Assembly: GCA_964036195.1 (NCBI GenBank)
Contig: OZ038450.1
Coordinates: 11,782,701 to 11,846,700, forward strand
Reading direction: 5' to 3'
Length of the DNA stretch: 64,000 nucleotides
DNA from: Sphaerolaimus hirsutus
Lineage: Eukaryota; Nematoda; Chromadorea; Monhysterida; Sphaerolaimidae
Below are positions 3,001 to 58,500 of the stretch, in pieces. The notes under the pieces are model-generated. The model was not told where the DNA came from, made no database searches, and worked only from the letters and a program-made list of their open reading frames with translations. The translations under genes were made by a program, and so were the position numbers. Each line of letters starts with the position of its first letter. Position 1 is the stretch's first letter.

Positions 3001-5274
3001 AAAATCACTTGAAAATGTGTCAAGTGAAAAAAAACAGTGAAAAATAGCCATTTTTCACTGTTTTTTACTTGACACATTTTCAAGTGATTTTCAGATATGA
3101 GTGAAGTGAAAAAAGTTCACCAATGTCATTGCGCAGCGTTTTTCACTTTACTCATATCTGAAAATCACTTGAAAAAGTGTCAAGTGAAAAAAAACGGGTA
3201 TATGTGCGTATCGGGCACGTGTGCGTATCAGTGCACGCCCGTTTTCACCACAGTCCATCCATCGTTTGAGATGCTTAATCTGCCTTGGTCTTTATGTCTG
3301 GTATGAATAACCTGTTAATACCAAACAGGGGAGTTATTCAAGGTGGGTATTTATTTCACAGTTTCAATTGAGGTATTCAAGAAGTTCGGAGTTGGGCTAT
3401 TAAGTCGATTTCACAATGTCGTCCGCGCGCAGGTGCACGAGGCGGCGTGGCACAGCGGCGCCATGGGTCGCTACGAGCGACTGGCGTCGTCGCCGGCCGC
3501 CGGCTCGTCTCGCTCGGCCGACCAGCCGCCGCACAAACTCAGCGCGCACGAGCCGCCGTCCGGCGCGTGGCAACGCAGCGCCACCCACAATGGGGGCGTC
3601 GGCGTCGGGCACTTTGATCACAGGCAGTCCGACCGACTCGCCGACGATGTCATGGGTATTGGAGGACTTTTGTCTTCGCCCTTAGGTGTGTCGTCACGTT
3701 AATGACATTTTATGCACGTGTAATCGAGCACAAAGAGCCCCTCAAATTCCAGGTACCATAGAGGCGAACTACTGGCAAACGGCGACTCGCCGCCAGCGGG
3801 AGTTGACCGACATGGAGCCGGGCACCTCGGCCAGGCACCAGCACGCCACCGACGACTGCTCCGCCCTGCTGCTGGCAGCCAGCGATGCCTACTACTTTGG
3901 CGACGTGGTCGAGAACGGTGGGCCGGCCGCCGTGCCCAACGACTCGGCCGCTTGCCGCATCGCCGAGCCGGAATACGGCATGTTGACGCCGCCCCCGAGA
4001 TGGTTGGCTGTGAAATGCGTTTTTTTTTCTAACTCAAATTCAAATCAGCCGCGCGGCCGCAGGCACCGACGTCGCCCGCCTACCGACAGAGGTCTCTTCT
4101 ACAACGCGCACCACAAAGAACTAGACGGCGGCGCCACACACGCCCCAGGTACAGCCGACGACGAGGCTCTGCTGGTGGAGCAGCGCCGGTCGAACACGGC
4201 CACCCGCGCCGGCACTGGCGTCAACGGCGACAAGCGCAAGCGGAGAAGGCGCGACCCACGCGACGCGTTCAGGATCACCGCCAATCCCATGGTGGACAGT
4301 TCGAGCGAGCAGAATCTGTCCACCGTCGCTGCGGCGGCTGTTGTAAGTTTTGTTCATAACACTGTGTGGGGGTCATGCCCTGCCCTGCCAGGTACCAGTC
4401 CCAAACCCTGTAAAATGTCAGGTGTCATGTAAAAGATCCTATTAAGTGTCAAATGTCATGTAAAAGACCCTGTGACATAAGATTTGGATACAAAGCATAA
4501 GATTTGGACACGATACAATAAGATTTGGATACAAAAGCATAAGATTTGGACACGATACAATAAGATTTGGATACAAAATCATAAGATTTGGACACGATAC
4601 AATAAGATTTGGATACATACGACACTTTACAGGGTCTTGATCAGCCCCCAGGTGACACTTAAAAGAGAGAGACCCTTCAAATCCCCCGATCCAAGGCAAT
4701 GTACTTAAGCAAAATAGCAATGTATCCTAAGCAATTCAGATTAAGTGAAGAACGAGTTTCTCACTGTAAACATTGTGTAAAATGTGTCACTTGAGGGCAG
4801 GAGCGAGACTGCCCCCATCCAACACGCATTATCACAACTGCCCCCCCCCCCCCGCAGTCGGACGGCAGCGGGTGCAGCGGTGACGAGGACGAGTGCGGCC
4901 GGATGCTGCTGGAGGCGGCGGCCGCGTGCGGCGGCGGTCGGCCGTTGGGCAACGGGGCAGCCGCGCTCACCGCCGCCGTGCCGCTTGACGACTGGGCGCC
5001 CGGGTGCCAGTCCCAGACCCTGTCAAATGCAGTGTAAAATGTCAAATGTCACGCAAATTGTCAAAAGTCATGGAAAATGCCCGGTAAAATGGCAAACGTA
5101 CGTTTGCCATTTTACCGGGCATTTTACATGACTTTTGACACTTTGCGTGACATTTGACATTTTACAATGAATTTGACACGGTCTGGGACTGCCCCCAGCG
5201 AGACGCTCGCTCGCATGCAGCACGACAAGGAGCTCAATGACTACTTCGGGGCGCTGAGGGAGACCGCCGCCTGA
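58..5274 (+). CDS. Single-pass membrane protein, 3' part of gene (possibly TMEM132-like)
   Basis: The gene enters the window already in progress. Exons 58-285, 1467-1619, 1860-2089, 2568-2706, 3433-3685, 3753-4342, 4858-5003 and 5199-5274 join in phase to give at least 604 residues, ending in TGA at 5272-5274. Exon 58-285 encodes a hydrophobic helix (LTMLIVLILVLLLGLSFA) with a low-complexity Ala/Thr/Ser segment before it, so the rest is presumably a cytosolic tail of about 530 residues. The tail is Ala/Gly/Ser rich and has EEWIWLSKDQLEG, a basic KRKRRRR cluster and a C-terminal KELNDYFGALRETAA. The topology, the EEWIWLS segment and the C-terminus recall TMEM132 proteins from memory, but this is weak. 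A 39-bp in-frame AT-rich stretch (4010-4048, GT...AG) may be a tiny optional intron. The last intron (5004-5198) is an introner. Confidence 0.75.
286..959. repeat. Degenerate inverted repeat in intron 1 of the membrane-protein gene
   Basis: Short units containing ACTCATCTA and CGACCCGC are repeated near 300-415. They come back in inverted form (ATGAGTAG, GGGTAGCACTAGAT) near 790-850. This looks like an old inverted-repeat element or satellite fragment within an intron. No coding sequence is visible. Confidence 0.5.
960..1407. mobile_element. Mariner-type MITE
   Basis: A 448-bp element whose left end TTGGGCTGATGCATAAGTTT is matched inverted at the right end, ending CATCAGCCCAA. Both sides are flanked by TA (958-959 and 1408-1409), the target used by Tc1/mariner elements. 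The ends resemble mariner terminal repeats in general form. There is no transposase inside, so it is non-autonomous. It lies in an intron. Confidence 0.75.
2861..3231. repeat. Near-perfect 371-bp hairpin in an intron
   Basis: The left arm begins CTGATACGCACACGTGCCC and the right arm ends with its complement, GGGCACGTGTGCGTATCAG. The arms pair almost completely to a centre near 3046, with TTTTCAAGTGATTTTCAG blocks repeated within each arm. It sits inside an older element with ends like CTGGAATAACTCCC (about 2790) and GGGAGTTATTCAAGG (about 3330). Probably a foldback MITE. Confidence 0.8.
4392..4651 (+). mobile_element. Introner-like element, long type, sense, inside a larger intron
   Basis: It starts GTACCAGTCCCAAACCCTG right after an AG and ends with CAGGGTCTTGATCAGCCCCCAG. 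The middle carries repeated AAGATTTGGATAC/ACACGATACAATAAG units. It lies inside the intron 4343-4857 in the same orientation as the gene, and its own ends look like splice sites. Confidence 0.8.
5004..5198 (+). mobile_element. Introner: whole intron is one 195-bp inverted-repeat element
   Basis: The intron begins GTGCCAGTCCCAGACCCTG and ends GGTCTGGGACTGCCCCCAG, and the frame closes across it (CCC GG | C GAG ACG). The two halves are inverted copies: CAAATGTCACGCAAA and CCCGGTAAAATGGCAAACG on the left, their complements on the right. Nothing outside the element contributes to the intron. Confidence 0.92.
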
Positions 5275-6362
5275 GCCGCCGTTTGTGCTTCCACAGCTTC
5301 GTTGCTCCGTTTCTACTCTTATGCAAGGCTTGTATGCATCATCTTCTATTGTTTGCTTTCCGTGATTTAGCTTTTCTGTGATTCTTCGTGCCACCTTATC
5401 ATATTACTGAAGTTGTGCTGATCTCGATATTTTTTATTCCATGAGACCGGTGAACCCAAATTCGGCCGATTGAGTGTATTCATATTTATTTATTTTTTGG
5501 AAATGGGGTAACTTGTATTGTCAAAGAGATTGCATTCGCTTTTTGCCACAATCGAATAAGGATGTGACGCTGTGTGATTTTTCAAAAATATTTCTGGGTA
5601 CTTATCTGGGTGGTTGATCCCGATTGACTGTTGTTTCCTATCAGCTTCAAATGTGTCTCATTTTCTAAAAATTTGTAGATGTGTTGGTAACAGATTTGTG
5701 GACGTTTTTCAGTGTCGAATATAGTGCGAGAATGCAGATATAGTTTTTACAGTGTTATTCTCGAGCCGCGAATACTTAATTTTAAAAGGTAAATTTAGGT
5801 CCATTTGAAAATTACAGTCTAAGCGACCGATCAATCGCCACTAAAAAAATAGAATTTGTGACACTATCAATATTGAAAGATTTATCAGCCAAAGATTCAT
5901 CTGCGATATTTATCCTGATTTACCACATATTTTATGAACGACTATATAATAATAACCCATGTAAAAATTATCTCTCCTCAAACCCAAAGGAGTACACCGC
6001 ACCAGAATACGGCGTACTCAAATGATTTTGAAAGTATGCAGGTATATATTTTCCAAGCATTTTTCCAAACATTAAATCTTTCCATTCCGCAATTGCAGCG
6101 CGATTTCAAATCGACATCACTGATTACAAATTATATATTTCATTCCCCGTTTGCAGCAGCATAGATCTGCTTTGTCTGTAATTTCAACAACACAAAATAG
6201 AACACCATGTACAATAAATAATATGTAAAACACAAACTCACTGACTAGATAATGGATTAAGGCAGGTAACTTTTTGTATAGGTGGACCTTATTATCTAAA
6301 TACCATATCTACCAAATAAACATGTAAATGTATCAAAAAGGGGCCACCAAACCCTAAACTTC
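5275..6362. other. Spacer between convergent genes; nothing recognised
   Basis: AT-rich sequence between the stop of the + strand membrane-protein gene and the stop of the - strand gene at 6363. No convincing coding exon, introner or terminal-repeat element is visible. It presumably holds the two 3' untranslated regions. Confidence 0.5.
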
Positions 6363-9300
6363 ACAACACATAAACCGGTGGAAAGATCTGCTCGTTCGCG
6401 TGGAACTTGCTGCCCTTGATGCGCGTCTGAAAGTCTAGCAAGGCGGCGAAGCGTCGCCTGTGCTCGGGCTCGTTGAGGCGGATCACGCTGTAGGTGATCG
6501 TCTCCGACGGCAACACGTCCGGGTCCGAGTCGGCTATCCGGTACTCGATGTGGTGTTTTCTGGGTGTTTGGTATCGGATTTAGTGGCTTGTGCGACGAAC
6601 CGCGATCGCCTCATGTCGGTATGATGTAAGCATTCAATCAAGAGTGAAAGTAGTTTGAGCAATTGCTTAAACCACGATGAGGACGTCCAAAAACAATATT
6701 CGAAAACACTCGAATTTTTAATATAAATATTTTTCGCCACAAAGTGAAGCGAAAAACTCGCTGTGCTATTAGGTGGTAAAACTAGGTAAAGAATTAATCG
6801 TGAAATATTCAGAAGTATTCAAACATTTTTTTTATCCACCAAAAATTTTCCCACACTATTATTTTATCATACTCCAGCCAAAAATAGTCACCCCAAATAT
6901 CAACGCCTCAGCTCACCCGCACAGCGTGGCGATCTCGATGAGCAGCTTGAGGGGCGCGGGCGCGACCACGCCGTCGCTGATGCGCACTTTGGTCAGCAGG
7001 TGTGCCGCCTCCGAGTGGTACACGGCGATCAGAAGGCGCTTGTGCGCGAACAGCGGCCGGCGCACCGACCTGGGGGCAGTCCCATACCCAGTAAAAGACC
7101 CCGTAAAGTGTAAAAGACCCTTAAAATGCCATGTGACATGTAAAAAACCCTGTAAGTGTCAAATGCCATGTTATAGACCTTGTAAAGTGTCACGTGTATC
7201 CAAATATTATATATTTGTATCCAAATATTACTTTTGGTCATAAGATTTGGATACAAGAATATTATATTTGAATATGATACAGTAAGAGTTGGATGTGCAT
7301 GACTCTTTACAGGGTTTTTTACATGACATTAGACACTTGACAGGGTCTTTTACTTGACATTTGCACTTGACAGGGTCTTTTACGTGACACCTGAAATATT
7401 TCACAGGGTCTTTTACCTGACACATGGCATTTTACAGGGTGTTTTACACTTAAAAGGGTCGTTTTCAGGGTCTGGGACTGGCACCAGTAGTGCAGCGCGT
7501 TGTACACCGCCAGCAGCTCCTTGTACAGCGGGCACTGGTCGGCCACGGCGCGCGGCATGAAGCACATGAAGTACTCCGCGTCTACTTTCGGGTCGGTTTT
7601 GAGCGTTAGAAACGCGCCGAATGTGTCCTCCGTTGCGGCTGCGCGACATAGTTGTTCAAACGTATTTACGTTCACTCAATAAATACGTATACTCCAGTGC
7701 AGCGTGAATACGTTTACATTTTGCCCAGAAAAATGCCGGTACTCACATTTTTAGCGTACTTTTTGAAAGTACGCGAGTCCCAAAAACGTATTTCAGACAG
7801 TCTACCTATATAGGTAAATATATAGGCACCATCCAGGCATAAAAGAGTAAAGTGAGAGAAAAAAAAACGAAAAATAAGGAAAAATAGCCAAAATGGCTTT
7901 AAAAAATAGGCAAACAAATTTGAAAATTAGTGATTTTGAGTGAAAATTGATGCAAAATTTCTCAAAAATACTCACTTTTACGTTTTCCGGTGAGAAAAGT
8001 TATTTACTCATGTTTACTCATGAGTAAAAGTTAAAAAAATTACTTTACTTTTCTGTACTCAGTGATGGGTAAAAAATTAATACTTTACGTTTACGTTTAC
8101 TTTGAAATTTTTTAAAAAAGAACAACTCTACTGCGCGATGCTATTGCGGTGCTATTTACGAAGGTCACAATTTTACTAAAAAATATTTCCGCCGACCAGT
8201 GGAGAGATAAAAGTGACTCCAATCGGCATTCTTCAGAGCTGCCAGCTGCGAGTGTCTGCGCTTCCACGGTAGTTCGTTTCGCTTGGAGTCGGGCCGACGC
8301 GGCAGGCTGCGTGATCGGCTAGAAGCGCTAACCCTGAGCGCAAGTGGAAAGGCACTGTGCCTCTGCTAAACCCACTAGACGCCCACCTAGGCTGATCGAG
8401 TGATGGAAAATATGTGGCAGATATTTCGCATGAAATTGATTGGTATTTTTTTATTATTGGTAATTTTTTCAAAGTATTGCTGAGTTGCTTCCGATGCGAT
8501 CCAACTCAGATGGAACGCTACTCTAGCAAAAAAGGTCGAAACTAGCGACCACTGAATCCCAAAATGTTACTATCCAGAAGGTAAAGAAAAATCCACCAAA
8601 AATACATGCCATCTGCGCACCTGTCATCTTCACCAGCCAGGCTGCTTTGCATGCTGACGGGGCGGCTGCCGCGGCGGTCCATGTGCGCGCCCGTGGCCAG
8701 CGGCGTCTCGTCGGACAGCGACTGACTGGCGCGCCGCATGCCGTGCAGCCGCATGAACAGGCGCGACCTGCGAGGCCGCGTTTGTTTGATAGGACACACT
8801 GAATCGGGCTGCGTAAAACTGTACTGTGCGACTGCCACTCACAGGCCCTGTAAAATAATGTCAAATGTCATGCTAAGTGTCAAATGTCGTCTAAAATGCC
8901 CGGTAAAATGGCAAACACATTTGCTATTTTACGCAGCAGTTTACACGGTTTTTCACACTTTGCATAACTTTGACACTTTACAGGGTCTCGGACTGCCCCC
9001 AGGTCAAATCGCCATACACGCACACACATACACACTAATTTCCCCACTGAAATTTCAAAGTATTTGGAAAACTCGGATCAGCTTTGAATACTGTATTTCC
9101 TCGAAACACACCATTCAAAATGTCAACCATGAAAAATAGACCCCCCGGGTAACGATGGCAAACCCTCCGAAAAAAAGTATTTAAATTTTTAAGTGTTTTT
9201 GCTGAAATGAATTTTAGAATTTTCGAATTTTCGAATTTTTCCTGAAATGAATTTTCGAATTTCGAATTTAATTTTCAAATTTTCGAATCTTTTTTGGCAA

Positions 9301-10495
9301 TTTTCGAATTTTTTTGGCTATTTTTCAAAATTTTTCAAATAATTTTTGAATTTTTTTTTGTAAAAATATTGAATCTGAAGTTTTAAATGAAGAATTTGGA
9401 CTGTTTTGGAAGTGGCTATACTCGGCAGATAGCTTATAGGCAGCAGATAGGCGGCTAAACTCTACAAATAGATATGATTTATGTCTTTGGCTGGCAGACA
9501 GCCAACCGAAAACTTGTGAACCGACTCCCCACTCCACTCCACTTCATCCAAACTCTGAACCGGTTCAGTGAGCCGTAAGTTCACTGCCAACTGCGGTTAT
9601 GACGTCATGATGGAGTGTTACCTCCAGAAAAATGTACAGTGTAATGTTGCCTGAGGATAGCGCACTGAGTGTACTCAGTGCATACAGTGCTAACTTCACA
9701 AGATACAGGTAAATACTTCTCAAACCACTCTTCTTTGATAATATTTTTGATCACATCTCTTTTACTTATAAATATGTTACTTATAAATTTACTCTATGGG
9801 CTGTCCCAGACACCTGTGAAATGCTCTGTGAAATGTCAAATGTTATGCAAAGGTCGAAAGTCATGGAAATGCTGTGGAAAATTGAAAATATGTTAACCAT
9901 TTTCCTGGGAATTTTCTTACCTTTTGACACTTGCATGACATTCCACATTTTACAGGGCATTTTACATTTACGTTTTTGGACGTTTTTTTGTTTGGTTTCG
10001 CTTTTTCATACGCACCGCGTACCAATTGTCAATTTATTGAGCATGTTGAACTTAAGAGTACGTTTTGTTGCCTTGAATTCCCCGAAAAATTCGAAAAGTA
10101 TTTTCGAATTTTTGAATTTTCGAATTTTTTAAAAAATAAATCGATTTTTAAGTGTTTTTTCTAGGGGTGAAATAAAAATTCGAAAATTATGAAAAAATTC
10201 GAAAATTCGAAAACATTTTCGAATTTTCAAATCTTTTTTTTGCCATCGTTACCCCCGGGGAAATATACAGTAAATATGAACCACCGCACCTGGCGGTCGT
10301 CTCGCACTTCTGCCGCAGCATGGCCGCCACCGCGCCCGGCATGGCGTTGCGGCTCGGCGGCAGGTCGGGCGAAACTTTGCCTTCCAACGTGTCCATCGGT
10401 TCCACTGACGAACCCGCCGGCTCCGAAATTTTGACGTTTTTTACGTCACCCTTGTGCGATTTGGTTGAACGCGCGCTCGGCATGGGCGACGACAT
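6363..10495 (-). CDS. Unrecognised protein with a conserved-looking C-terminal half
   Basis: Exons on the minus strand: 10495-10290 (start ATG, N-terminus MSSPMPSARSTKSHKGD), 8767-8621, 7638-7485, 7069-6917 and 6559-6363 (ends FPPVYVL then TGA). The first pair and the last three join in phase. The join 8621 to 7638 does not, so a further exon between them is likely (a GC-rich stretch near 8360-8240 is a candidate) or one boundary is wrong. The N-terminal part is Ser/Pro/basic and looks disordered. The C-terminal half (EDTFGAFLTLKTD, KELLAVYNALHYW, LLIAVYHSEAAHLLTKVRI, YSVIRLNEPEHRRRF) looks globular. I do not recognise the family. The intron 7484-7070 is exactly one introner. Confidence 0.7.
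7070..7484 (-). mobile_element. Introner: whole 415-bp intron is one element
   Basis: Read on the minus strand, the intron begins GTGCCAGTCCCAGACCCTG and ends GGGTATGGGACTGCCCCCAG. The codon split TG | G gives Trp and leads straight into SVRRPLFAHKR. This is the long type: inside are repeated CAGGGTCTTTTAC blocks and a core with ATAAGATTTGGATAC units in inverted arrangement. Confidence 0.9.
7655..8130. mobile_element. MITE of the ATAGTTGTTAAAA family
   Basis: One end reads ATAGTTGTTCAAACGTATTTACG and the other CTTTGAAA...AGAACAACTCT. The interior has alternating ACGTTTACGTTTACT and TACTCATGAGTAAAAGT motifs. Related copies lie at 15736-16262, 25575-26077, about 37250-37462 and about 50295-50600. 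This copy abuts the acceptor of the exon at 7638. Confidence 0.65.
8833..9002 (+). mobile_element. Introner-like element, antisense copy inside a larger intron
   Basis: On the plus strand it reads TGCCACTCACAGGCCCTG ... GGGTCTCGGACTGCCCCCAG with an inverted-repeat interior. The host gene is on the minus strand, so the copy is antisense and its ends cannot act as splice sites. It lies inside the intron 10289-8768. Confidence 0.75.
9141..10259. mobile_element. Foldback element with CCCCGGGTAACGATGGCAAA ends
   Basis: The left end CCCCCCGGGTAACGATGGC is matched inverted by GCCATCGTTACCCCCGGGG. Both arms continue into TTTTCGAATTTTCGAATTT low-complexity sequence. An eroded introner lies inside. 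The whole element lies in the first intron of the minus-strand gene. Confidence 0.65.
9798..9970. mobile_element. Eroded introner-like element
   Basis: GGCTGTCCCAGACACCTGTG, then CAAATGTTATGCAAAGGTC, then the inverted counterpart ending ACATTTTACAGGGCATTTTAC. It has clear similarity to the introner arms, but both termini are degraded. It lies in the intron 10289-8768. Confidence 0.55.
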
Positions 10496-11324
10496 TTTTA
10501 GTAAATGACTGGGTCTATAATTAACTGACTGTCAGTAAATTACTGGCTCTCTCAGGGATCAAAATAGTATTTACCTCGAAAACCACATGTTTCGCTGGAA
10601 GAATATACCTATGTGCGCTTGCGGCGGGGCGCAGAGCGGCACGTTATATTTTATGCTTAAAACAGCTACAGGTAGCATGCGATGAGCATCTGACTCGCTT
10701 GCGGCACACGATGGATAAAATACAGGTTGCTAGGCAAAACAATACTGATATGGCGGCGCATCAGCAGCGGGTAGTATCACGTCAGCATTTTCTGCTGAGA
10801 CCGAAACTGCCAAGTGTCAAGTGCCCTGTCAGATTAGCACTTGAAAGTTTCGCACTTCAAGCACATCTGCTTGACGCACTTGTTGAACATCTGTCACACG
10901 ATGGTGGAACGGAGATTTGAAACACTTTTTGGAACGTCACTTGACAAGGTGGGAAATCGGAACCTGGGTGGGCTGGAGGAGGGAATCATTGGCCTGGCCA
11001 TTAAGTTGGTAGAGATCACATGACGGCTTTCTAATTCGATAGCTACTCTTTGGGAGGCTGTGGCTGTGTACTTTCAAACACCCATCTTTCACGATGATGT
11101 GAAATAAAACGTAAACTGTATTTTCTGTTTAAACCTCTGAAATCACAATTTTTCGTGTACCACGGTGGGACATCTTTTAATAATAAAGTATATATTTACA
11201 CAAATCACAAGTATATACCTATTAATAATTACATAGAAATATTTATGTGCATGAAAAAAATGTCGTCGTTTAGTGCCCGACATTATGAAAAGATACATTG
11301 AAAAACAATAAAACCATGTCAGAT
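10496..11324. other. Spacer between the head of the 10495 gene and the tail of the cysteine-rich gene
   Basis: It should contain the 5' end and promoter of the minus-strand gene starting at 10495. I see no clear exon or complete repeat here, and no TATA box that I would defend. Confidence 0.4.
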
Positions 11325-11570: not shown

Positions 11571-11694
11571 ATTCCAGTGACTTGAAAACCGGTCTGACCT
11601 TTATTAAAATGGCAAATTGCAAAGAAAAGCACGTGGAAAATGAATTACTGAATACAACTCAGTATTACATGCATAATTGCATCGCGAAACAAAT

Positions 11695-12119: not shown

Positions 12120-13819
12120 TTAATACAAGCAGTCAGCAATGGGATCTTCATAATAATCACAAATCTGTTCCTCATTCTGCTTGAGATGGAGGTGTCGCGT
12201 GCAGCACAGCTGCTTCACGTAGTTGCAGTCGTACGAGCGCTTGCACGCGCCGACTGCGTAAAATACCCCATGTGACAACAAAAGTTTTACTGACACATTA
12301 TACCCAGAATGTAGAACACGGGGGTGAATGTTTTAAATATAAATACGTAGCCCCAGTGTGGCAAAGCGCCAGAAAAAGAATGGTGCCGAATGCTAAATGG
12401 CGTCGTCACACTGCTAATGTAGGCCAGAAAGCAGTCCCTGTAAAGTACAAAGTAGTGTTAAATGTCATGTACAATGTCAATCAAAACAAAAAAGATTTTA
12501 TTACTGAACTTTGCATGATACTTACCACTTACTTCACACTTTACATGGTTTGGGATTGGCACCAGCGTTCCATCAAGTCAACGCATCTACACTCACAGTA
12601 CTTGGCAGTGGGCTCGTGCTGCTGATCGGGCGGCACGCACATGCCCAGCGGGAAGGCGCTCTCAGCCAGCAGATCGCACAGCAAGCCCCTGCCGCAGGTG
12701 GACGGCCGGCGGTCGACCAGACACGCCGATCCTTGGCTCGGCTCCAGCGACACGCACGTGCCCGATGCTGCGTTGTCAGGCAGTTGTGAAAAGTTGTCGC
12801 AAATTGTGAAATCTTGATGCAAAATTCATATCTCGAGTACTACTGGAGCTTTTTGGATATTGATTCTTGGACACAATATAGATATGGGTAAGTACCTTCA
12901 ACATGGCAATTTAGGGATCTGTAATTTGTGAAAACTGAATTTCTTGTGTATTTCTTATTCAGCGTTCTTGTGCATTTGTAATTTGCGGATACTAAATTTG
13001 TCGCTTTAACGTCACCTTTACTCGTCCATCAAGCTATAACTCCCACCCAAAGTGTCACTCCCTCAAAACCCACCAGCGAACTCGACCGCACTCTCGGGCA
13101 CGGTGTCGGGCAGCATGTGCACGGCCCTGGTGGCCGCGTCGTGCCGCATGCACTTGGCCGGCGAGCAGCACTCGTCCGTGCCGAAACAGTGCCCGCCCGC
13201 CGGCGAGCAGGTCGCCTGTGGTGCAGCGTTGTTTGCTCGGTCGATTATTTGATTGTTTGGTTAATTGATAATAAGTCATAGACATATACACACTGGCTTA
13301 CTAATAAAATTTTTAAAATTTGGAAAAATAAGCTCATAAATCCGCTTTGAACGAATGGGAATGGGTTATTTCGACCAAGGCTCATTCCGAATGTATACCC
13401 GCCCCGAATGTATACCCGCACCGAATGGAAGCATACCCGCTCCGAAGGTAAGCCCGGCCCGAAGGTAGCATCAGTTACCTTCGGGCCGGGCTTACCTTCG
13501 GAGCGGGTATGCTTCCATTCGGGGCGGGTATACATTCGGGGCGGGTTTACATTCGGAGAGGCACAGGCTCGGTTATTTCACCGGAGTGGGTTATTTCTAC
13601 TCTCCGCCAACTGTAGTTGATGAACACCAAATTACAGTAAGCTAAAATGCACTTTCAATCTTGATTTACGAGTTTGCTAAATTTATAGTTTACTGACAGT
13701 AGTAAACTAGTGTTTACTGACAGTAGACAAGAGATAAAAATATTTTAACTGGTTACCTTCACGGATGAAATCGCGACTGTTGATGAAATAATCAAGAATG
13801 CCCATAAAGTGGTTTCCAT
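12120..13819 (-). CDS. Small secreted cysteine-rich protein
   Basis: Exons on the minus strand: 13819-13757, 13215-13074, 12767-12563 and 12253-12120. The first, only 63 nt, encodes METTLWAFLIISSTVAISSV, a good signal peptide, and joins in phase to ATCSPAGGHCFGTDECC. The mature protein has closely spaced cysteines (CFGTDECC, STCGRGLLC, YCECRC, YVKQLCC) and ends DPIADCLY. The pattern is that of small disulfide-rich secreted proteins (dickkopf/colipase-like or hormone precursors); I cannot name the family. The join 12563 to 12253 is out of phase. A candidate exon 12413-12304 (110 nt, fully open, flanked by AG and GT) restores the frame and would make the preceding intron a 149-bp introner. Confidence 0.7.
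12414..12562 (-). mobile_element. Introner supplying a donor splice site
   Basis: On the minus strand it starts GTGCCAATCCCAAACCATG exactly at the end of the exon (CGC TG |) and runs through an inverted-repeat interior to CAGGGACTGC near 12430. The expected CCCCCAG end is eroded; the next AG is at 12414, which is the acceptor if the candidate exon 12413-12304 is real. Confidence 0.7.
13386..13556. repeat. Near-perfect GC-rich palindrome
   Basis: CCGAATGTATACCCGC and CCGAAGGTAAGCCCGG units form a left arm, mirrored by CCGGGCTTACCTTCGG and GCGGGTATACATTCGG on the right, centred near 13470. It lies in the first intron of the cysteine-rich gene. The flanks (GGTTATTTCGACC, GGTTATTTCACC) suggest an older outer repeat. 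Confidence 0.8.
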
Positions 13820-18400: not shown

Positions 18401-20068
18401 GTCGCACGTGTCGACCACGTTGACGGGCACCTCCTTGGTAACGCCCTTGGCCGCTTCCTGGGGGCAGTCTCAGACCCTGTGAAATTCCCTGTAAAATGTC
18501 AAATGTCACGCAAAGCGTCAAAAGTCAGGTAAAATGCCCGGTAAAATGGCAAACGAGCGTTTGCCATTTGACCGGCCATTTTACACGACTTTTGACGCTT
18601 TGCGTGACATTTGACATTTTACAGGGTGTTTTACAGGGTCCGGGACTGGCACCTGGAAGCTCAGCGTGATCATTGTCTCCTGCGTGGCGCCGTGGCCCGC
18701 CCGTTTCGACTCGGCGTGCGCGCTGTCGCCGCCGAATTGGGAAAAGAAATCGTTGAAGCCGGCCGATTGGCGGCCGCCGCGCGACTGCCCGCCGAATGTG
18801 CCGAATATTTCTGCGCGTTTTTCTTTTGGCAGGTGCGTATTACACGCAAGATGAAGAATTGTTGATCGGGGGAAGGGTCGGTAGAAAGTAAAGAAAGTGC
18901 CTTTTTAGCTACCATATTTCTTAGCTAGCTTCGTCGAAATACCGCAGGGGTTTTTTTTCATTTCGACAGCAAATTTTGAGGGTGGGGTTAAGTTCAAGGG
19001 GGGCTCGTTAGAGGGTGGTTTATTATTTCGCCAGATATTTTATGAAATTACGTTTACGTTATTACGTTATTATATGTTATGTTATTACGCCAGATATTTT
19101 ATGTTATTTCGTTTATGTTTATTATTTCCTCAAATGAGATCCCGAAAATTTTACAGCGATTTTCCAGGATATGATCAGTTCACACTGGCTCTTGAAATTG
19201 CACATGGAGAGCTCCAGACATGAAATACAAAAACTGACGTCTAAACAGTTCTTCCGGGTCAACAGTGGAGCTATACTGGAAGCCACCAGGGAAGCCGCCA
19301 GCCTGGTAACCCGACGGGCCGGCTCCGCCCATTTGCTGGGCACTCTGACCCCATTGGTCGTACTGCTGCCGCTTGCCCTCGTCGCCCAGCACCTGGAATA
19401 AGGTTAGAATTTTGTTGACATAAATGACAACACGTTGACAACACACACGATTTGAGGATTGATGAATGACTCGAAAAGAATCAAAGCTTCAGAATACTGA
19501 AATCCCACACTTAACGGTACTCATTGAAATATGTTTCCTTGTTTTTGATTTTCTAGTATGCGCGAAAAATCTGCATACTTGGCAATAATCACGCTTAGCG
19601 TGGGAACCTACCATAACCCATCTGCATAATGAAGCCAAAATTATACAGGTTTTTCAGCATCATATTTCGTTTTAACTATGGAATAATTAATTACAAAATT
19701 TATCACAAGATTTTATTCATTAAATTATGATACGATTCAGCACATACTTTGCGGTCCGCCAAGTATACACACATTCACGTCCATTGACGTACCTCGTAGG
19801 CCTCTGACACTTCATGGAACTTCTTACCGGCCTCTGGCGATTTATTCACATCTGGATGAAATTTCTTAGCCAGTTTGTAATAGGCTTTCTTGATATCTTT
19901 CCCTGTAGCGCTCTTACTGACTCCAAGAATGTCATAGTAACTTTTCTTGGTTGTACTGAAGGGAGGGCTTGTGTGCAGCTGCCTAGCGGCGAAAGCGACC
20001 AACTGCGGCTCTGCATTGAAGTTTTTATGAAAGAAGTTATGAAAGGCACGTTTAATAGCTGGCACCAT
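15472..20068 (-). CDS. DNAJA3: Mitochondrial Hsp40 co-chaperone DNAJA3/Tid1, two alternative C-termini
   Basis: Exons 20068-19793, 19392-19239, 18810-18653, 18457-18317, 18021-17821, 17321-17077, 16670-16573, then 16483-16350 (468 residues) or 15659-15472 (486 residues), all in phase. The N-terminus ([17 protein letters not shown] ... RQLHTS) looks like a mitochondrial presequence. A J domain follows ([23 protein letters not shown] in FHPDVNK), then a Gly/Phe region and four CxxCxG zinc repeats (CDRCDG, CPYCNG, CRTCGG, CLNCEG). The C-terminal substrate domains include [13 protein letters not shown] and [15 protein letters not shown]. The protein delivers clients to mitochondrial Hsp70. The first last-exon ends [12 protein letters not shown], like the long human form; the second gives an unrelated basic tail. 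Both accept the same phase-1 donor. The intron 18652-18458 is an introner. Confidence 0.93.
15736..16262. mobile_element. MITE, ATAGTTGTTAAAA family, 8-bp target duplication
   Basis: It begins CATAGTTGTTAAAACGC and ends TTTTAGCAACTCTG. It is flanked by CCTATATG (15728-15735) and CCTGTATG (16263-16270), which match at 7 of 8 positions as for a hAT-type insertion. It separates the two alternative last exons of DNAJA3. Confidence 0.75.
16740..17045. mobile_element. Composite: second-type introner split by a first-type introner
   Basis: The outer arms are purine/pyrimidine-rich inverted repeats (CTTTTACTTTCCTC ... GAGGAAAGTGAAGAG) converging on TTCCACTTGTGGAAGTTGG and GGTTCCATTAGTGGAAAA. Between them (16825-16957) lies an inner unit with GGGGGCAATCCCAAAGTG and GGATTGGTCCCTGGTGC ends and a GTATCCAAATTTTATG core. 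It lies in the DNAJA3 intron 17076-16671. Confidence 0.6.
17428..17745. mobile_element. Second-type introner relic (TTCCGCAAGTG ends)
   Basis: GGGGTCAATTCCGCAAGTG on the left and CCACGTTCGGAATTGAAACCC on the right flank AAGTGAGAAGT/ACTTCTCATTT inverted low-complexity arms. It is related to the copy at 57712-58363. It lies in the DNAJA3 intron 17820-17322. Confidence 0.55.
18458..18652 (-). mobile_element. Introner: whole 195-bp DNAJA3 intron is one element
   Basis: On the minus strand it begins GTGCCAGTCCCGGACCCTG and ends GGTCTGAGACTGCCCCCAG, between TTC CAG and GAA GCG (phase 0). It has the same length as the element at 5004-5198 and the same internal hairpin (CCGGTAAAATGGCAAACG). Both splice sites are the element's own ends. 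Confidence 0.93.
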
Positions 20069-43000: not shown

Positions 43001-45700
43001 CATCGAACCACCACAACCCCCCCCCCCAAACCCCCCCAACCCACACCCCAGAAAATTTTTCAGCCATCTATCCCTCCAGAGGAGCGATTTGCTATCTATC
43101 CAACCACTCGGAGGGTCAAAATTCAAGATACCCCTGTAACACCCCCTTGTAAAACTCCCTCTATTTTCGAGGTGTGGAAAAATAACGCCCTCTTGAATGA
43201 CGCCCCCCTCGTGATTACCCCCCTTTGGTTATTTGATATGTGTATCCTAAATGTGTATTTGAATAATTCGGATGCCGATGAACACGGATAAAGCATGAAT
43301 ACATGCATTGTTTTGGCTGTTGTTGTACTGTGAAATACCTGGATTACACGAGTTGACAGAATGCATTCATACAAAGAAAAAGGCGAGTTCTGAGGAAAAA
43401 TAACTCCCCTTCAATATCACCCCTTGTATAACTCCCCCCTCCTAAACGAAATAATAACTCCCCTGGGGTATTATTCGTGGATATACGGTAGAATTAAATT
43501 TCACGTGGCCCCATTCAGAATGCGCTACTGTGACCACGCGTGTCGTCTCGGCCACGCCTTCGAATGGGCACAGCGACTGGCCGGTCTGCGCGGAAAAGTG
43601 ACCCAGCCTCAGGTACCACCCCCGACCCTGTAAAGTGCCAAATTTCATGCAAAGTGTCAAAAGTCATGTAAAATGCCATGTCAGATGAACGCGGACGACG
43701 ACCTGCCGACCTGCCTCGAGGATTGCGATATTGTGGCTGGGGTCGACCTGGTGCAGCGTGTCGTGAGCAGTGTCAGGGACAGATGCCTTCACAGGGTTGA
43801 ACTGTACAGGGCTATCTCGTTGTGTAGTGCGTTTTGACAGCAGTTTTCGATTGTTTTGTTTTTATCTTATTTTTGTCGGCATTTTTTTATGCAGAGAGCC
43901 TGGATGTTGCTAGCGCGGTATCCAAGCTGGAAGCTGGCAGTATATTGAATGCTCCGAGCAACGTTGCAACCAAGTTGTCGCAGTGGTCGAACATAACATA
44001 CGACGATTTTACGGTCGGTTAAAGCGATAATTGTCAGTGCTGAGACTATGCACTTGGTTCTGTGCGAATGCCTTGCTTTCTATGTAATACCGTATTTCTT
44101 CTAATAGAAGAGCGCCGTTCTATTGGAGGCATCCGTTCTATTGTTTTCAAGAGTGCAAAAACATGTCAAAACCTGCCGTTCTATAGGAGGTGCCATTTCT
44201 ATTGGTAGTATGCCGTTTTATTAGAAAAAATACGGTAATATGTCATATTTCCCCACTAGTGTCAACAAAAAGTATATTCATCTACCTCCAGTGCCACGAA
44301 CTGAATGTTGAACAAGCGGACATTGCGCCACTTGATTATTTTTACACTGCGAAGTTTGACCACCCGTCAGGTGGGTGAATTTTTGGTCAAGTTTCCATCC
44401 ATCAAATTTTGCAAGCGCCGGTGTATCGCAGCTAATTTGAGCGCTCTGGTCGCCGTGCCAGTCGGGTACCCGCGCGATCCGCCACTGTTCTTTTTATCTC
44501 TCGACCGCGGCGGAAAAGGCAGCCGCACCGCTTTCAACGATGCCATTGTGAAGGTGTGTGAGATTTGACATTCTCTTGCGACCCTGGCGCTAAGTGTTCT
44601 CCACATACATAGATACCGTATTTCCTCTAAATACCCGCAGGGGGTTTATTTTTTCGGAGTGGAAATTTTGAGGGTGGTATTGCGAGGGGGGGTTAATTAT
44701 TTCACCAGAAATTTTCGTAAATATCGTAGTAAAGTATGGGCTTTTTCATACCCAGAACTGGTAATAAACGTCACCAAACGGGACGTATTAGAACATACAA
44801 ACGTAGATAGCTATACAAACTACTTTATGTATAGCTGCGATGAGATTTGACCCAAATAAATACATCATGTACATTGTATATATGATGTATATCATTCAAG
44901 ACGGGGGGTATTTCGAGGGTGAGCGCATTTTTTCCTCAGCTCGAAAACACCTGGGGTTAATTCAAGGGGGGGTGTATTTCGTGGAAATACGGTAGCTGGG
45001 TGATTGGGGGGGGGATTCAGAAGATAGTAGCCTCGGGATAGATAGATAGCTGTGCAGCCCCCTCATTGAAGACCCCTGCAACGGGTGTACATGTCGAGCG
45101 GATTTACATGTCTAACGAGCCTACGTTTTTATCGTTGACCGTGTTGTCAGGATCTGGAGCGCGTGGTGAACACGCTGGTGCCGCTGGCGGCCGGCCTCTC
45201 TTCCGATCTGCTGATGAACCAAGTCAAAGTGCTGATGTCTCGCTTCGATCTCACCATGAACACGGCCGAGGGTGGTGGCCAAGGCACCCAGTTGACTTAT
45301 TTGGTGCAGAAAAAGAACAGGTAGCCCTTTCAGAGTTTTTTTTTGGGGTGGGGGAAGTTATAATATAACACAAGTACGATATTGGGCGCGAGGCTGTCCT
45401 GTTCTAAAGTGAATTTGAAATTAGCGTTTTTTTCAACATTTTTTTCGGTACAGTCTGATTCAATATTTTCAACCCAATTAAACTAGTAATTTTTCTACAG
45501 TTGTGGTTTCTTAGTTTTGCCCCTCAAATAAATAGCAGAATGTAATGTAGCTCACACAGTGGTGTGCATGTTTACATTTAAAAAAATTAGCAAATTATTT
45601 TAATCAGGTATTACATTATTTACTATCAAAATGTTGCAGAGGCAATGCGAGAGAATTGCCGTACCTGTACGACTGCTCGACACGCTGTTTTACGTTTTGA
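37063..45700 (+). CDS. THOC5: THO complex subunit 5
   Basis: Exons 37063-37167, 37582-37749, 39036-39205, 39444-39519, 39730-39915, 40791-40922, 41117-41222, about 41702-42014, 42237-42341, 43519-43612, 43685-about 43830, about 43895-44013, 44292-44370, 44432-44553, 45151-45320 and 45640-45700. THOC5 belongs to the nuclear THO/TREX complex, which couples transcription to mRNA export. The match rests on the coiled-coil part (LVHQVHHLCKEIHRC, IDMVPIDQFYNEAPEEITKP, LARLNWELEQRKRMA), the following CKRLPRPPFCLYLHANAFAQ segment and the C-terminal half (RLGHAFEWAQRLAGL, VLMSRFDLTMNT). Most joins are in phase; 43830 to 43895 did not resolve, and the acceptor near 41702 is one of several options. The intron 43613-43684 is a half-introner. 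One intron is only 61 bp (44371-44431). Confidence 0.88.
38225..38722. mobile_element. hAT-type MITE, AGGGGTCTCC family, copy 1
   Basis: Ends TAGGGGTCTCC and GGAGACCCCTG, with a perfect 8-bp duplication GCGCGCAC (38217-38224, 38723-38730). The interior has C/G runs and CAGCTATCTATC repeats. It lies in a THOC5 intron. Confidence 0.9.
41294..41660 (-). mobile_element. Introner-like element, long type, antisense, in a THOC5 intron
   Basis: Plus strand: GGGGGCACTCGTTCACCCTG ... GGGTCTGGGAGTGGCTCCTG, that is, the introner ends reversed. The core has ATAAGATTTGGATAC-like inverted units. Being antisense, it does not define the intron ends. Confidence 0.78.
42604..43136. mobile_element. hAT-type MITE, AGGGGTCTCC family, copy 2
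   Basis: Ends CAGGTGTCTCG and AAGATACCCCTG, with a perfect 8-bp duplication TAACACCC (42596-42603, 43137-43144). The interior matches 38225-38722 (CAGCTATCTATC, CGCTCAAAATCGC). A short fragment of the family is at about 45005-45079. Confidence 0.88.
43613..43684 (+). mobile_element. Half-introner forming a 72-bp THOC5 intron
   Basis: The intron starts GTACCACCCCCGACCCTG and continues GCAAAGTGTCAAAAGTCATG as in the left arm of the short introners. It stops at GCCATGTCAG, before the hairpin turn. The frame closes (CCT CAG | ATG AAC), giving KVTQPQ-MNADD. The acceptor therefore comes from CATGTCAG rather than from the missing right end. Confidence 0.88.
44090..44235. mobile_element. TA-flanked MITE, CCGTATTTCTTCTAATAG type
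   Basis: Ends CCGTATTTCTTCTAATAG and TTAGAAAAAATACGG, flanked by TA on both sides. The interior has TTCTATTGGAGGC repeats. Related sequence occurs at about 1650-1735 (AATAGAAGGGCG). It lies in a THOC5 intron. Confidence 0.75.
44616..44992. mobile_element. TA-flanked MITE, CCGTATTTCCTCGAAATACCCC family
   Basis: Ends CCGTATTTCCTCTAAATACC and TATTTCGTGGAAATACGG, flanked by TA. Other copies or parts: 51802-52269, 47100-47356 (METTL5 intron) and 48738-48826. It lies in a THOC5 intron. Confidence 0.8.
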
Positions 45701-45966: not shown

Positions 45967-47519
<1,553 letters not shown>

Positions 47520-52499: not shown

Positions 52500-52595
52500 G
52501 TTGTGATATTCTGTGGTATCAGCCTTTCGAATGGGTTGAGTTATGCTTGGCCGAAAATACTTCTGCAGCGCCGGCGTTAACCTGCAATACTTAAA

Positions 52596-55500
52596 ATGTT
52601 AGCTCTACTAGTCTTCATCGGTGCATTTGCATGGCTGCTGTGGTATCTGCACGAGCGCAACCAGTGGATAAAGCGCATCTCACTGCCTGGTTTGTCGACT
52701 CAGGCCAGGGGCATTACCGCACCCTGTAAAGTGTAAAGTAACGCGTGTCGTGTAAAATGTCATCAAGATAATAAACAAAAGGTTTTATTACCAAAATTTT
52801 AACACTGCATGACAACTGACAAATTTGTAAGACATTTTACCTCGCATTTTACACTTCACTTTACACTTTACATGGTCCGGGACTGGCACTAGCTGAGGTG
52901 GACAATCGCCCACCAAATTGACAAATCTCGGATCTCGTGTGAAATGTTTTATCATACAGTGCAAGTTTTGCTGCGCTGTTTTTTTACAATGTGCGCAAGT
53001 GCATCTTTTCTTAAGAAAACACCAAAAACATTCGCATGACAGTCGACCAAAACGTTTCTTTGGAATGCTGAAGAATTTGAAACATAAGTCTGAAATTCGC
53101 CACTTGTCATTGCGATACATCACGAGAAAAATAGACATCCACGAGAAAAATCAAACCGAAGAAAGTATATATTTTTTTATTAAATTACTCAGGCCCAGAG
53201 CCGGAGTACATTTTCGGCTCTTCGCGCCACTTGCAGCCAAACAGCCAGAGGCCTATGATTTTTGAACAAATGGTGCAAAAATATGGAGACACATTTGGCA
53301 TCATCGATGGAAACATAGGTGTGGTGGTCACGAAAGATGTAGAAATACTTCAGGATGTTTTTGTGAAGAAATTCCCTTATTTCCACGGCAGAATGGTTTG
53401 TTTCAGTTTGTTTTGAGTATTCGTACAAATGCACGCTACAGCTTTATTTTGATCACATATTTTTGTGTTGATTTATCTGCTCGAAGTAAAGGAGATATTG
53501 AATTAATCTTAAACCGAAAATTGTGATGGAGCTTTGTGTCCAGGCACGACAAAATGACTACCTAATTTGCAGTTGTTCCCGCTGCAAGGCGACGTCGACA
53601 ACGAGAACAACATGGTGGGCGTTTTCGTGGCGCGCGGCTCTAGATGGAAACGTCTCAGAGCCATTACGAATTCATGTTTCACTACTGGCTCCTTGAAAAA
53701 TGTGAGTCGGGCATGAAAACCACGTGTTTATTTTTCCCCATGAAAACTCAAGAGGGGATATATCCAAGGGAGTGCTTACTTGGCCTTTAGCATGTGTAAA
53801 ATACAACAAAAAGGGCGGCATGAAGCCATTTTTGTATAATAAATACCTAGGCATAGCTTATCTGTAAATACTTACCAAAAATGCTTTGCGTGCGTCGCAC
53901 AATGTCACCGCACAAGTTGCATACACTTTGTTATTTTAGGTAGGTACTTTGATTTCACAATTTTTAACGCTCAAATCTAGGCGAGCCCGCCTTTCGTTGT
54001 TTATGCTACGAATTATGTTTTTAAAAGATTACATGCATGATCACGCATTCTAGAGGGGGAGTTTTTCGAGGGGTTCTTGTCTCTCCAGCTATTTCTGAAG
54101 GGGAGTTTCCCAAGGGGCATTATACTTTGGTCGCAATGGCACTAGTGTTCACCGTGACTTGTGTGAAAACTGAAATGGCCACTAATTTCAACTTTTATTA
54201 ATTAAAATTTAAACTAAATCGTTCAACCGTGTCCATTAATTTGCATTTGAAAAAATTTCAGTTTTCACACGAAGTCACGGTGAAAACTAGTGTGTGTAGG
54301 CACATTGGGATTTCTCATGTTGATTCCAAAGCGTCATGCAGCTGATGCCAACGATAGAAGAATGCGTACAATCGCTAAAGAAACGTATCCGCGAAAATGG
54401 CGACGATGGAAAATCATTCGAGAGCAATCCGCTAGTTTCTCCATTTATAAACTTTCAGCGGCTCAAACAAATCCAGCACATTTTCCAGCCTTTTTGCCGA
54501 CTTCACGGTGGACGTGATCGCCAGAGTCGTGTTCGGCGAGAAAAGAGACCTGCAGTTGGAAGGCGACACTGAGTACGGGCCGTTGGCGCGCGCCATTTTC
54601 AGCAGCCAAATGACTTTGAGGCATATTGCAAGTTGGTGAAGGGCAGTGGTGGAAAAAGCTACCTAGTTAGGAAAGTGATTACAGGCGATAGCTAATTTTA
54701 ATGGTGTCATAAATTACCTCATCAATAAATGGTTTGGCGCAATTTGAAAATTTGATAAGAGGTAGCACCGAATGTAGCATAGATAGCACCAATGCTCAAA
54801 GTGCCAATGGGTAAATCGATCCGCGCCTTGCCATGCCATACGGCTTGATATCAGAGTTGTAAAAATATTTGTACTTTTGGAAAGTGTCAGCGTCAGCATA
54901 AATATCAAATACCCGGGTATTTTGGGTAAGCGTAAATACGCTTTTGTAACTCGGCTCAACATGCATATTTAATTTGTACACCATTTCACAGTGCTGTTCC
55001 CCGAACTGCGCCTCTTCTGGCGGTGGGTCTTCATCATGTGCGCTGTGATAGGCAATTCAGTGCCAACATTCAAATTTCACGAAAATATGTCGCGGATTAT
55101 TGCGGCCAGGAAAAAGGTTGAACGATTGCAGTGAATTCATATGAAAATTGTGTTTATCATTAAAATGCGTTTCTACGACAGAATCCAGACAGAGGGGGAC
55201 GTCCTGACCTACTCCAGATGATGATTAATGCCGAACTCACTGAGGACAGTCAAATAACAGGGGGCAGTGATGGTGGCGTGCTCAAGCTTGGATCAGTCAA
55301 CATAAACAAGAAAATGACCACCAATGTGCGCGCCGCTGCAAACGCAATCAGATCATATTTATACAGCAAACAATACTAAATATTTACATCCAATCAAAAT
55401 CCACAGGAAATTCTACAACAGAGCTTAGAGATCCTGTTCGCTGGCTCTGAAACCACTAGCAACACGCTTACATTTGCTACGCATCACTTGGCCATTCAAC

Positions 55501-58500
55501 CAGATATTCAGCAGAAGCTGTATGAAGAGATCTGTACAAAGATGCGCAGCGAGGTAAATACAGGCTCCACGCACTCTAGTTGACGGCTGAAATTTCGGAA
55601 ACTGACGAATCAGCTTTAACCGCAATTGAGTTCACCGGGATGAGAAGTCTTATCAATCACAGTTGACGCAGAGGAGATCGAAATGGTTCATTCTGGTAAA
55701 CACAAATGTGTTAAAAACGGATTTATTGGTTCCCGAAAAAACGTGGCAGTTACCTATGTAGATTTACTTTTATTACGTGGTAGCTGAACTAGTGATTGAA
55801 AAGCGCCATGGCGTTGGCGACTGGTGGCAGTCACAAGCCCGGTAAAGTGTAAAGTAAGGTGTCAAATCTAAAGTCAAATGCAAAGTCAAATGTCAATTGT
55901 CATGCAAAGCGTCAAATATAAAGTCAAATGTAAAGTAAAGTGTCAATTGTGTATCCAAATCTTATTTTTCGTATTCAAATCTTATGTTTTGTATGATTTG
56001 TATCCCAATCTTATGTGAAATAAGATTTGGATATGAAAACATAAGATTTTGATTCGAAAAATAAGATTTGGATACACAATTGACACTTTACTTTACATTT
56101 CACACTTTGCATGACAATTGACACATTACTTTACATTTGACACTTTGCATGACAATTGACATTTGACTTTGCATATAACTTTTTATTTGACCCTTTACAT
56201 GGGACTGCCTTCAGGCAGGGTGTCAAATTTCCGTTTCCGTTTCCGCAGGAAAATTTTTTACCTTTTCATTTTCCATTTTCCGGCAGCTGAAATTTTTTTA
56301 CCTTTCCGTTTTCGTTTTCCGGCAGCTGAGATTTTTTTACCTTTCTGTTTCCGTTTTTCCGGCCCATTTTTCCGTTTTCTGGTCAAAAAAATTTTACCTT
56401 TCCGTTTCCATTTTTCCAGGCCAGTTTTCCATTTTCTGGCATTTTTCCATTATTTTTCCAATCTGTATTTATCTTTTTTCCACTATGGTGTTTTAACTAC
56501 CAGGTTCTTGTGTCGTTCATAACTTTTATCTGTATCTAAATCTGGAAAAAATGAAGTAATTTCAGACACATACTTTGCAGTCCGCTGAGTATACTTTTTA
56601 CTGTTGAGTTACATTCTAAGTTCACTTTTGCTAAATTCTTCTTGTTGTTGTAGTGTATTTTTGCTACCGTTTGATGATTGTTGGTTCAGTTAAGCTTGAA
56701 CTACAAGTGATGTTACTGGCATGATTCATAGTGCCAGAATGTACAGCTACCACAAACAAAGCCAAACAGGCAAACATGCATGCAGGTTTTCCTTCTGCAA
56801 ATTTGTCCATTTCCGTGCAAATTTCACTTTACTTTTTTTTCCGTTTCTGTGAAAATTTCGCTTTCCGTTGTCCGTTTTCCGGCATTTCATTTTTCCGTTT
56901 TCCGGCCGATACATTTTTTTATCTTTCCGTTTTCTGTTTTCCGCTGAGTGAAATTTTTTTACCTTTCCGTTTTCCGGCAGAAATTTTTTTACCTTTCCGT
57001 TTTCCATAAAGTGAAAAAATTTTACCTTTCCATTGTCCGTCAAAAAATTTTTTGACACCCTACCTCCAGGTACTGGCACCAAAGTAAAAATCGCCACGGC
57101 GGTTTTGTCACTATTTTGCTGTGATGCTTGGTGTCATGGCGCTTTTTCCATCACTAGCTGCGACTAGGGTGTCAACAAATTTTTTAAAGAAAACAGAAAC
57201 GGAAATTTTTTTGCACTTGCCAGAAAACGGAAATGGTAATTTTTTCGCACTAGCCGGAAAACGGAACTCAAATGGACAAAATTTTGCCTGGTGAAAGCGG
57301 AAAACGGAAAGTTGACACCTGAGCTGCGACCCTGCCGTTCTCCTCAAATTGCATACCTAACTTTTTATGTAGTGGCATGATTTGTCGGGCAGAACTAGGG
57401 TGGCAAAAAAATTTTTTTACGGAAAACAGAAACGGAAATGGAAAAAAATTTTCAGCGGCTGGAAAACGGAAAAAAATGTGCACTTGGCGGAAAACGGAAA
57501 CGAAAAAAATTTCAGCTGCCGGAAAACGGAAGGGGCCGGAAAAACGGAACTGGAAAAATGAAATTTGCATGGAAACGGAAAAATTTGCTGAAATTTTGCT
57601 GGTAAACAGATAAAATTTGCTGAAATTTTGCTGGAAGTGGAAAAAAATTGCAGAAATTTTGCTGGAAACAGAATTTTTTTTACATAATTGACAATCTGCT
57701 TGAATGTTTACCTGGGGCCAATTCCGCAAGTAGACAAGTTAAGAGTTAAAAGTTAAGAGTTGAGTTAAAGGTTAAAAGTTGAGCCAAAAGTTGAGTTAAA
57801 AGTGAAGAGTTGAGTTAAAGGTTAAAAGTTGAGTCAAAAGTTGAGTTAAAAGTTAAGAGTTGAGTTAAAGGTTAAAAGTTGAGTCAAAAGTTGAGTTAAA
57901 AGACAAATGGGTCATTCGTTGCAGAAGCGCGATACGCTGATCTTCAATCATATTTTGTCCCCGCATGGCCATTTTGAAACAACGTTCTGCGATTTTTTTT
58001 TTTAGCGATAATTTTTTGGATACGTTATTTTCAAATGTCGTGCATACAACATTGGCAGCATGCCAGCAAACAGCCGTATCAATACCAATTTCACATTTTT
58101 ATTTTTTTACCATCATTTTCCACTTGTCTCTTAACTCTCAACTCTCAACTCAACTCTTAACTCAACTTTTAACTCAACTCTTAACTCTTAACTCAACTTT
58201 TAACCTTTAACTCCACTCTTAACATTTCACTCAACTTTTAACTCAACTCTTAAATTTTAACTTTTCTCTTAAACTTTAACTTTACTCTTAACTCGCCATT
58301 TGTCATTTTACTCAACTCTTAACTTTTAACTCTTAACTTGTCCACTTGCGGAACCGGCACCAGTTTGACTGGAACATAAAAACTGGAAATTGAGATGGAA
58401 AACAGAAAAAAGGCGGAAAAACTGAAAATTCAGCCGGAAAACGGAAAATGAGATGGAAAACGGAAACGGGAAAAAACGTGGCCGGAAAACGGTAAAAATT

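Follow-up and report, generated by a model that had tools for sequence, protein, structure and literature searches.

A NuwaI-like hairpin MITE family that probably works as an introner, with a predicted donor at one TIR end and a predicted acceptor in the duplicated CWG target

How new introns arise has long been asked, and few animals are known to have introners. Those of Aureococcus and Micromonas were reportedly identified by Huff et al. 2016 as DNA transposons whose duplication is used for a splice site; they differ from the family described here in being found in algae and in their duplication lengths. In the available text of Gozashti et al. (2022, PNAS, PMC9860276), introners are given for two animal groups only, and Fig. 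2C presents a type that carries the 5' splice site and takes the other site from the insertion site. As far as that text goes, our family resembles those introners in its similar introns in unrelated genes, TIRs, short duplications and unchanged protein, and is unlike them in its CWG duplication, its large share of TG and a GT that lies in one changed end of a near-palindrome. The accessible part of PMC7789003 describes the Amoebophrya introners as having broadly variable splice motifs and as lacking inverted repeats specific to a family, whereas here a single family with fixed ends was observed. What they share with our elements is inverted repeats, hairpins, non-canonical ends and short direct repeats where the element meets the exons. 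A precedent for a TG acceptor is found in human U2 introns, where the portion of PMC2374985 available reports TG 3' splice sites as alternative sites in 36 human genes; unlike here, those introns are not transposon-made.

The NuwaI group of PHIS, present chiefly in animals, has a 5'-CWG-3' duplication and a TIR starting with GGG, and the available part of Han et al. (2015, PMC4482050) makes no link between it and introns. Compared with that partial description, our family is like NuwaI in its CWG duplication (at both ends in 61 of 98 copies) and in the GGGG of its 3' TIR end, and unlike it in that the other TIR end is GTG(C) and that the family is seen as short non-autonomous copies. In strict PIF/Harbinger elements the duplication is TWA, and this assignment was rejected because it requires an AT-rich duplication and CWG was found here. 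Other superfamilies were weighed by duplication length, and CWG together with GGG ends pointed to NuwaI. The family is best called 'NuwaI-like' and not 'NuwaI'. When the 28 longest ORFs of the fetched loci (see below) were inspected by eye for a transposase, none was recognised; an autonomous partner would hold a DDE_Tnp_4 (PF13359) gene and a Myb/SANT ORF between CWG-GGGGCAGTCCC ends. No earlier description of the family was found in a partial body of literature, which was without most journals and Gozashti 2025 (PNAS 122:e2414761122). As far as that literature reaches, the apparently new features are a CWG target, a donor that would arise from broken TIR symmetry, and the CTG class.

We consider it highly probable that the elements form a large non-autonomous family of hairpin MITEs, PIF/Harbinger-like (PHIS) and nearest to NuwaI, and that this family acts as an introner. 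The starting point was a stretch of 64 kb (C1:11782701-11846700; the window, meaning all of the DNA analysed at this locus). When the window was searched with GTGCCAGTCCCAGACC, 16 matches with three or fewer mismatches were found (shuffle mean 0.39), and GGTCTGGGACTGCCCCCAG gave 10 matches (shuffle mean 0.01). Both counts lie far above the shuffle, in agreement with an earlier note on this DNA that had described an element with common ends in many copies. That note had counted about 20 copies; the repeated family stands, and the number came down to about 17 places matched at E<1e-3 by a profile made from 69 copies outside the window, with fragmentary matches joined by eye. Seven of these are two-ended pairs. 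The copies and the associated sites are as follows.

1763..1866, strand not given: fragmentary copy, profile match
4392..4653, plus strand: long-subfamily copy, matched by the profile in part (4392-4478)
5004..5195, plus strand: complete element of 192 nt with arms 93% complementary; proposed intron 5004-5198
5196..5198, plus strand: CAG, right copy of the duplication and predicted 3' splice site; the left copy is now CGG
7073..7484, minus strand: long-subfamily element of 412 nt; proposed intron 7484-7070; duplication CTG left and CAG right
8832..8999, plus strand: element copy with a damaged donor (CTGC)
9798..9966, strand not given: diverged copy, profile match
12432..12562, minus strand: diverged copy, profile match
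18461..18652, minus strand: complete element; proposed intron 18652-18458 in a DnaJ gene; CAG/CAG
23535..23693, plus strand: element copy without an open frame across it
26691..26793, minus strand: fragmentary copy, profile match
31755..31880, plus strand: diverged or truncated copy, profile match
35971..36134, plus strand: complete element flanked by CAG/CAG; its proposed intron, 35971-36137, lies in a gene for a carnitine acyltransferase
41558..41656, minus strand: one end of a copy, adjoining a Thoc5-like exon and antisense to the gene, profile match
43613..43687, plus strand: diverged half element (one arm) lying within an open frame; its proposed intron, 43613-43684, would use an internal acceptor
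46629..46777, plus strand: degenerate element within METTL5, with 46628-46761 as the proposed intron
52708..52889, minus strand: diverged copy, profile match
55824..56209, strand not given: fragmentary copy or copies, profile match

The Pfam match of the Thoc5-like exon near 41558..41656 is below cut-off, and a search for homologues of this exon returned none. A longer subfamily, to which window copies 4392-4653 and 7073-7484 and copies at loci L074 and L059 belong, has many TATCCAAAT / AAGATTTGGATAC repeats in its inner part.

In the 348-Mb assembly of 762 contigs, the 20-mer TIR core has at least 3,140 exact matches (1,603 forward and 1,537 reverse), and the reversed control has 0 in both directions. 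Exact left ends of the forms CCAG-GTGCC and CCTG-GTGCC were counted 529 and 406 times, respectively, and right ends of the CAG type 513 times; the controls gave 0. Exact matches to the core were absent from viral_contigs and from the bacterial and archaeal genome_contigs, collections from which near records may have been omitted. The majority sequence of the element is a 190-nt near-perfect palindrome, from which the copies diverge by a median of about 8%, and the length ranges from 123 to 412 nt in the first 49 copies. The element is thus a MITE by its short length, TIRs, high copy number and lack of coding capacity (judged from size), and it bears the marks of mobility, namely TIRs, a duplication and copies elsewhere in the genome.

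The anatomy of the ends was established from all two-ended copies of the window and from 87 fetched loci (357 kb), a non-random set picked around exact TIR matches on one contig, within its first 8.2 Mb (later 10.2 Mb). A total of 102 element pairs was obtained, of which 98 could be oriented and four ambiguous ones were left out. The element begins with GTGCCAGTCCCAGACC on one side and, read on its own strand, with GGGGCAGTCCCAGACC on the other. The inner parts of the arms pair nearly perfectly, and the terminal four bases are unlike, GTGC versus GGGG on the own strand, so that the 5' TIR end is GTGCC and the 3' TIR end is GGGGC on its own strand. These asymmetric ends (GTGC..CCCC) are exact in 57/98 oriented copies. 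CWG is present outside both ends in 61/98 copies, and in 48 of these 61 the left and right triplets are identical, sharing the middle base (Fisher p 2.4e-6). The flanking triplets, left/right (n=98), are CAG/CAG 29, CTG/CTG 19, CTG/CAG 11, CAG/CTG 2 and other 37. The preferred outer bases are C before (59/98) and G after (57/98). From the agreement of the triplets and the C/G preference, it follows that the element inserts at CCWGG (C-CWG-G) and that CWG is duplicated. A duplication of 4 or 5 bp was rejected because left/right agreement drops beyond the 3-bp core, except for the C/G of the target preference.

The GT donor would thus be a product of broken symmetry, one TIR end departing from the other at the last four bases. 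As read from these ends, the element brings the putative 5' splice site (GT) alone, and the putative 3' splice site is the duplicated CWG target. Two statements of the earlier note do not agree with this anatomy. It had derived both GT and CAG from the inverted repeat, and the terminal four bases are precisely the ones that are not inverted (GTGC versus CCCC). It had also let four introns end at the last base of the element; these introns (to 5198, 7070, 18458 and 36137) end with a CAG that is part of the duplicated target, and their last base lies 3 nt beyond the element. Rare copies (L075 626 and L093) have GTGC at both ends, and the ends at L058/L060 are GGGC/CCCG; these copies may represent symmetric or ancestral states.

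Six introns had been proposed in the window, and the reading frame closes in all of them (6/6), as had been claimed. A GT is found at the first base of the element in five of the six, including 43613, and the claim that each intron starts there fails at 46628, where the duplication supplies the putative donor G as its last base and the element begins one position on, at 46629. Of four protein families said to be recognisable, three were confirmed (carnitine acyltransferase, DnaJ and METTL5). The proteins at 5004, 7070 and 43613 have no Pfam match, and that at 7070 has no PDB match either. The carnitine acyltransferase match (35971-36137; Pfam E 5e-15) runs across the junction, and the alignment to carnitine octanoyltransferase is gap-free there. 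The DnaJ gene with intron 18652-18458, which we take to be DNAJA3-like, has a DnaJ C-terminal domain in a further exon (E 1.3e-21), and the DnaJ central domain beside the junction scores 24 bits, below the Pfam cut-off of 32.7. For METTL5 (46628-46761), the match downstream of the junction has an E-value of 2.4e-6 and the upstream match is weak; going by the reading frame, we infer that G of the duplication and T of the element form the donor and an internal TTTTACAG the acceptor. The proposed intron leaves a net +18 nt (six codons).

Because a restored protein is expected of any insertion with such a duplication and is alone no proof of splicing, orientation was tested. Joined flanks were scored for coding likeness with a three-position base model from 14 training loci (leave-one-out), all chosen in sense and some by eye. 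The orientation set consisted of 91 distinct copies, seven near-identical copies having been dropped, and the control was 340 CCWGG sites in the same loci that hold no element, scored with the full model. Coding-like flanks were found for 38/91 copies compared with 53/340 control sites (p 4e-7), and the coding-like copies were oriented 32 sense to 6 antisense compared with 27:26 in the control (p 0.0016). When the training loci were removed, 27/77 copies were coding-like (p 3e-4) with an orientation of 22:5 (p 0.009). The six antisense calls include the METTL5 copy, although METTL5 is truly a sense gene. The sense bias and the coding enrichment are what one would expect if the strand with the GT were under selection to be spliced.

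In the window and outside it together, 12 copies lie in sense in genes identified by homology search, for which sense peptides only were submitted and antisense frames were judged by eye. The match spans the junction in 8/12, namely in carnitine octanoyltransferase (the window copy at 35971..36134) and, outside the window, in cohesin SA, AMPK gamma (73 residues gap-free over the junction), KCC (83 residues gap-free over the junction), two OSCP1 exons, an Srx GPCR and an endonuclease III/MutY relative (a weak match, E 0.048). In a leucine-rich-repeat gene and a cadherin gene, the matches lie beside the junction. As judged from frames and homology, similar predicted introns are thus present in unrelated genes, with a likeness that reaches both splice borders, and an element retained in the message would bring stop codons into nearly all listed frames. 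One OSCP1 gene (L019 4490-5313) carries a CAG/CAG copy as well as a CTG/CTG copy, and the exons that hold them correspond to profile positions 1-49 and 50-89. When 91 antisense open frames were inspected by eye for antisense exon insertions, the sole recognised gene was PI3-kinase-like (L059/L061), and it was rejected as such an insertion because the L059 copy sits within a probable intron. That element (L059 582) begins 11 bp past the probable native donor CAG-GTGTGT and is antisense to the PI3-kinase-like gene (by eye). In five pairs of loci (L021/L022, L034/L035, L058/L060, L059/L061 and L076/L077), nearly the same sequence recurs at a distance of about 35 to 204 kb with the element in the same position, so the duplications of these stretches probably postdate the insertions.

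With a CWG duplication, a large share of insertions offers TG rather than AG. AG is present at the 3' end in CAG copies and is lacking in the 19/98 CTG/CTG copies. In coding-like flanks, CTG/CTG copies are oriented 9 sense to 1 antisense (p 0.02), and 7:1 without the training loci (p 0.07, not significant). Sense copies with CTG on the right were found in conserved exons of AMPK gamma, OSCP1, the endonuclease III/MutY relative and the Srx GPCR; in AMPK gamma, the right copy was read as CTG with one C of the element lost and was tallied under 'other'. Coding CTG/CTG copies diverge from the consensus by 6.8% (n=9) and CAG/CAG copies by 7.2% (n=12; p 0.24), so that on this measure, which gives a rough age only and could be taken for just two CTG/CAG coding copies, the former are not clearly younger. 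Among 12 CTG/CTG copies, an in-frame AG was found 3 to 45 nt downstream in 8/12 and was missing within 60 nt in 4/12. A downstream AG was therefore rejected as a uniform rescue, and codon skipping by this route is possible for some copies. An internal TTTTACAG was rejected as the acceptor of these copies because it would leave +19 nt and shift the frame.

Left-CTG copies carry CAG on the right in 11/30 cases, compared with 2/31 left-CAG copies with CTG on the right (p 0.005). Twelve further left-CTG loci had CTG on the right in seven (one with an element C lost), CAG in one and neither in four. By themselves they add nothing to the trend from CTG to CAG, and the pooled figures are 12/38 versus 2/31 (p 0.015; p 0.014 without L093). 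This change suggests that the right CTG would be a weak or unusual acceptor that is prone to improvement to CAG. The CTG/CTG sense copies in conserved exons are a misfit with the simple GT-AG rule, and suggest either TG acceptors or hairpin-directed excision.

Excision of the near-perfect hairpin by a separate pathway that joins the exon ends whatever the terminal dinucleotides, independently of the spliceosome, was considered as the first alternative and appears unlikely. Such excision of DNA transposons from animal mRNAs has reportedly been described as 'SOS splicing', a phrase that was not found in the literature searched. It would tolerate CTG/CTG copies, and the stem runs over the whole length of the element: the predicted fold of 5004-5198 with 10-nt flanks has -151.7 kcal/mol and a z of -20. 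It is also in line with Amoebophrya introners that have inverted and direct repeats and non-canonical ends, as far as PMC7789003 was available. However, the stem is alike in both orientations, so this pathway predicts no sense bias, and a bias was observed in the CTG/CTG copies too, even if they are few (9:1 and 7:1, as above). The fixed GT and the change of the right CTG to CAG also point to the spliceosome. Of eight copies shown folded alone, six had the last four bases at each end unpaired; when the fold of 5004-5198 was predicted with exon flanks, some of these bases paired with the exon, which counts against the ends being left free. It is speculative that the modelled stem might hide an internal GTAAAA and TTTTACAG and bring the true ends together.

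The second alternative, that these are ordinary disruptive MITE insertions, left unspliced in exons as recent or segregating damage in one haplotype, with frames that close due to the duplication, is in our opinion quite improbable. Frame closure is automatic for insertions of this type, and four of the eight junction-spanning loci are without an AG acceptor at the element end. Against it stand the sense bias (32:6, or 22:5 without training loci, against 27:26), the divergence of the copies (median about 8%), with CTG/CTG coding copies not clearly younger than CAG/CAG ones, and the presence of copies in AMPK gamma and cohesin SA, genes that are usually essential. A secondary invasion, in which a transposon inserted into pre-existing introns and merely resembles them, is very improbable: some copies are indeed intronic (e.g. 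L059, 11 bp after its probable donor), but at the eight junction-spanning loci no residual intron sequence lies between the exons and the element ends.

The introner reading, as put forward in the earlier note, is supported by the TIRs, the duplication, the protein continuity of the flanks and the sense bias, with the difference that of its 'own splice sites' the element carries the 5' one alone. According to this reading, the element would enter C-CWG-G and duplicate CWG, as the sequences indicate. The exon CWG would then be followed directly by the GT of the 5' TIR end as the predicted donor. When the target on the sense strand is CAG, the right-hand copy of the duplication would become the acceptor CAG, and removal of the element with one CAG would restore the original coding sequence exactly. 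Statistically, sense insertions appear to be strongly favoured in exons. A CTG target would give the acceptor CTG, and such sense copies seem to persist in conserved exons. The stem would pair nearly all but the last four bases and may mask internal sites. These data are best read as removal by the spliceosome, the 5' TIR giving the GT and the duplication the CAG; less surely, the CTG of the duplication would be used in the same manner.

We propose tentatively that one family makes both GT-AG and GT-TG introns, with at least two in five born with a CTG acceptor, persisting and later changing to CAG. If this is correct, CTG-born introns would be spliced adequately for conserved genes to retain them, perhaps with the help of the hairpin, and the birth and repair of a 3' splice site would be visible in progress. 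The CAG and CTG copies are a natural experiment, in which the same element is present and the acceptor base alone differs, and this contrast makes tolerance of TG acceptors and conversion from TG to AG directly measurable. The thousands of TIR ends lie on chromosome-sized contigs of an assembly that, going by genes such as OSCP1, cadherin, the Srx GPCR and cohesin SA, appears to be that of an animal, and target, donor and acceptor are all readable.

Two other repeats were observed in the window. A different repeat at 22705-23193, 27290-27631 and 62791-63135 has frames like 'RDVSRIFKRGG' (by eye, from ORF translations), and a long imperfect tandem repeat of the GCHFWGVPRGCHF type at 61634-62480 is open in several frames.
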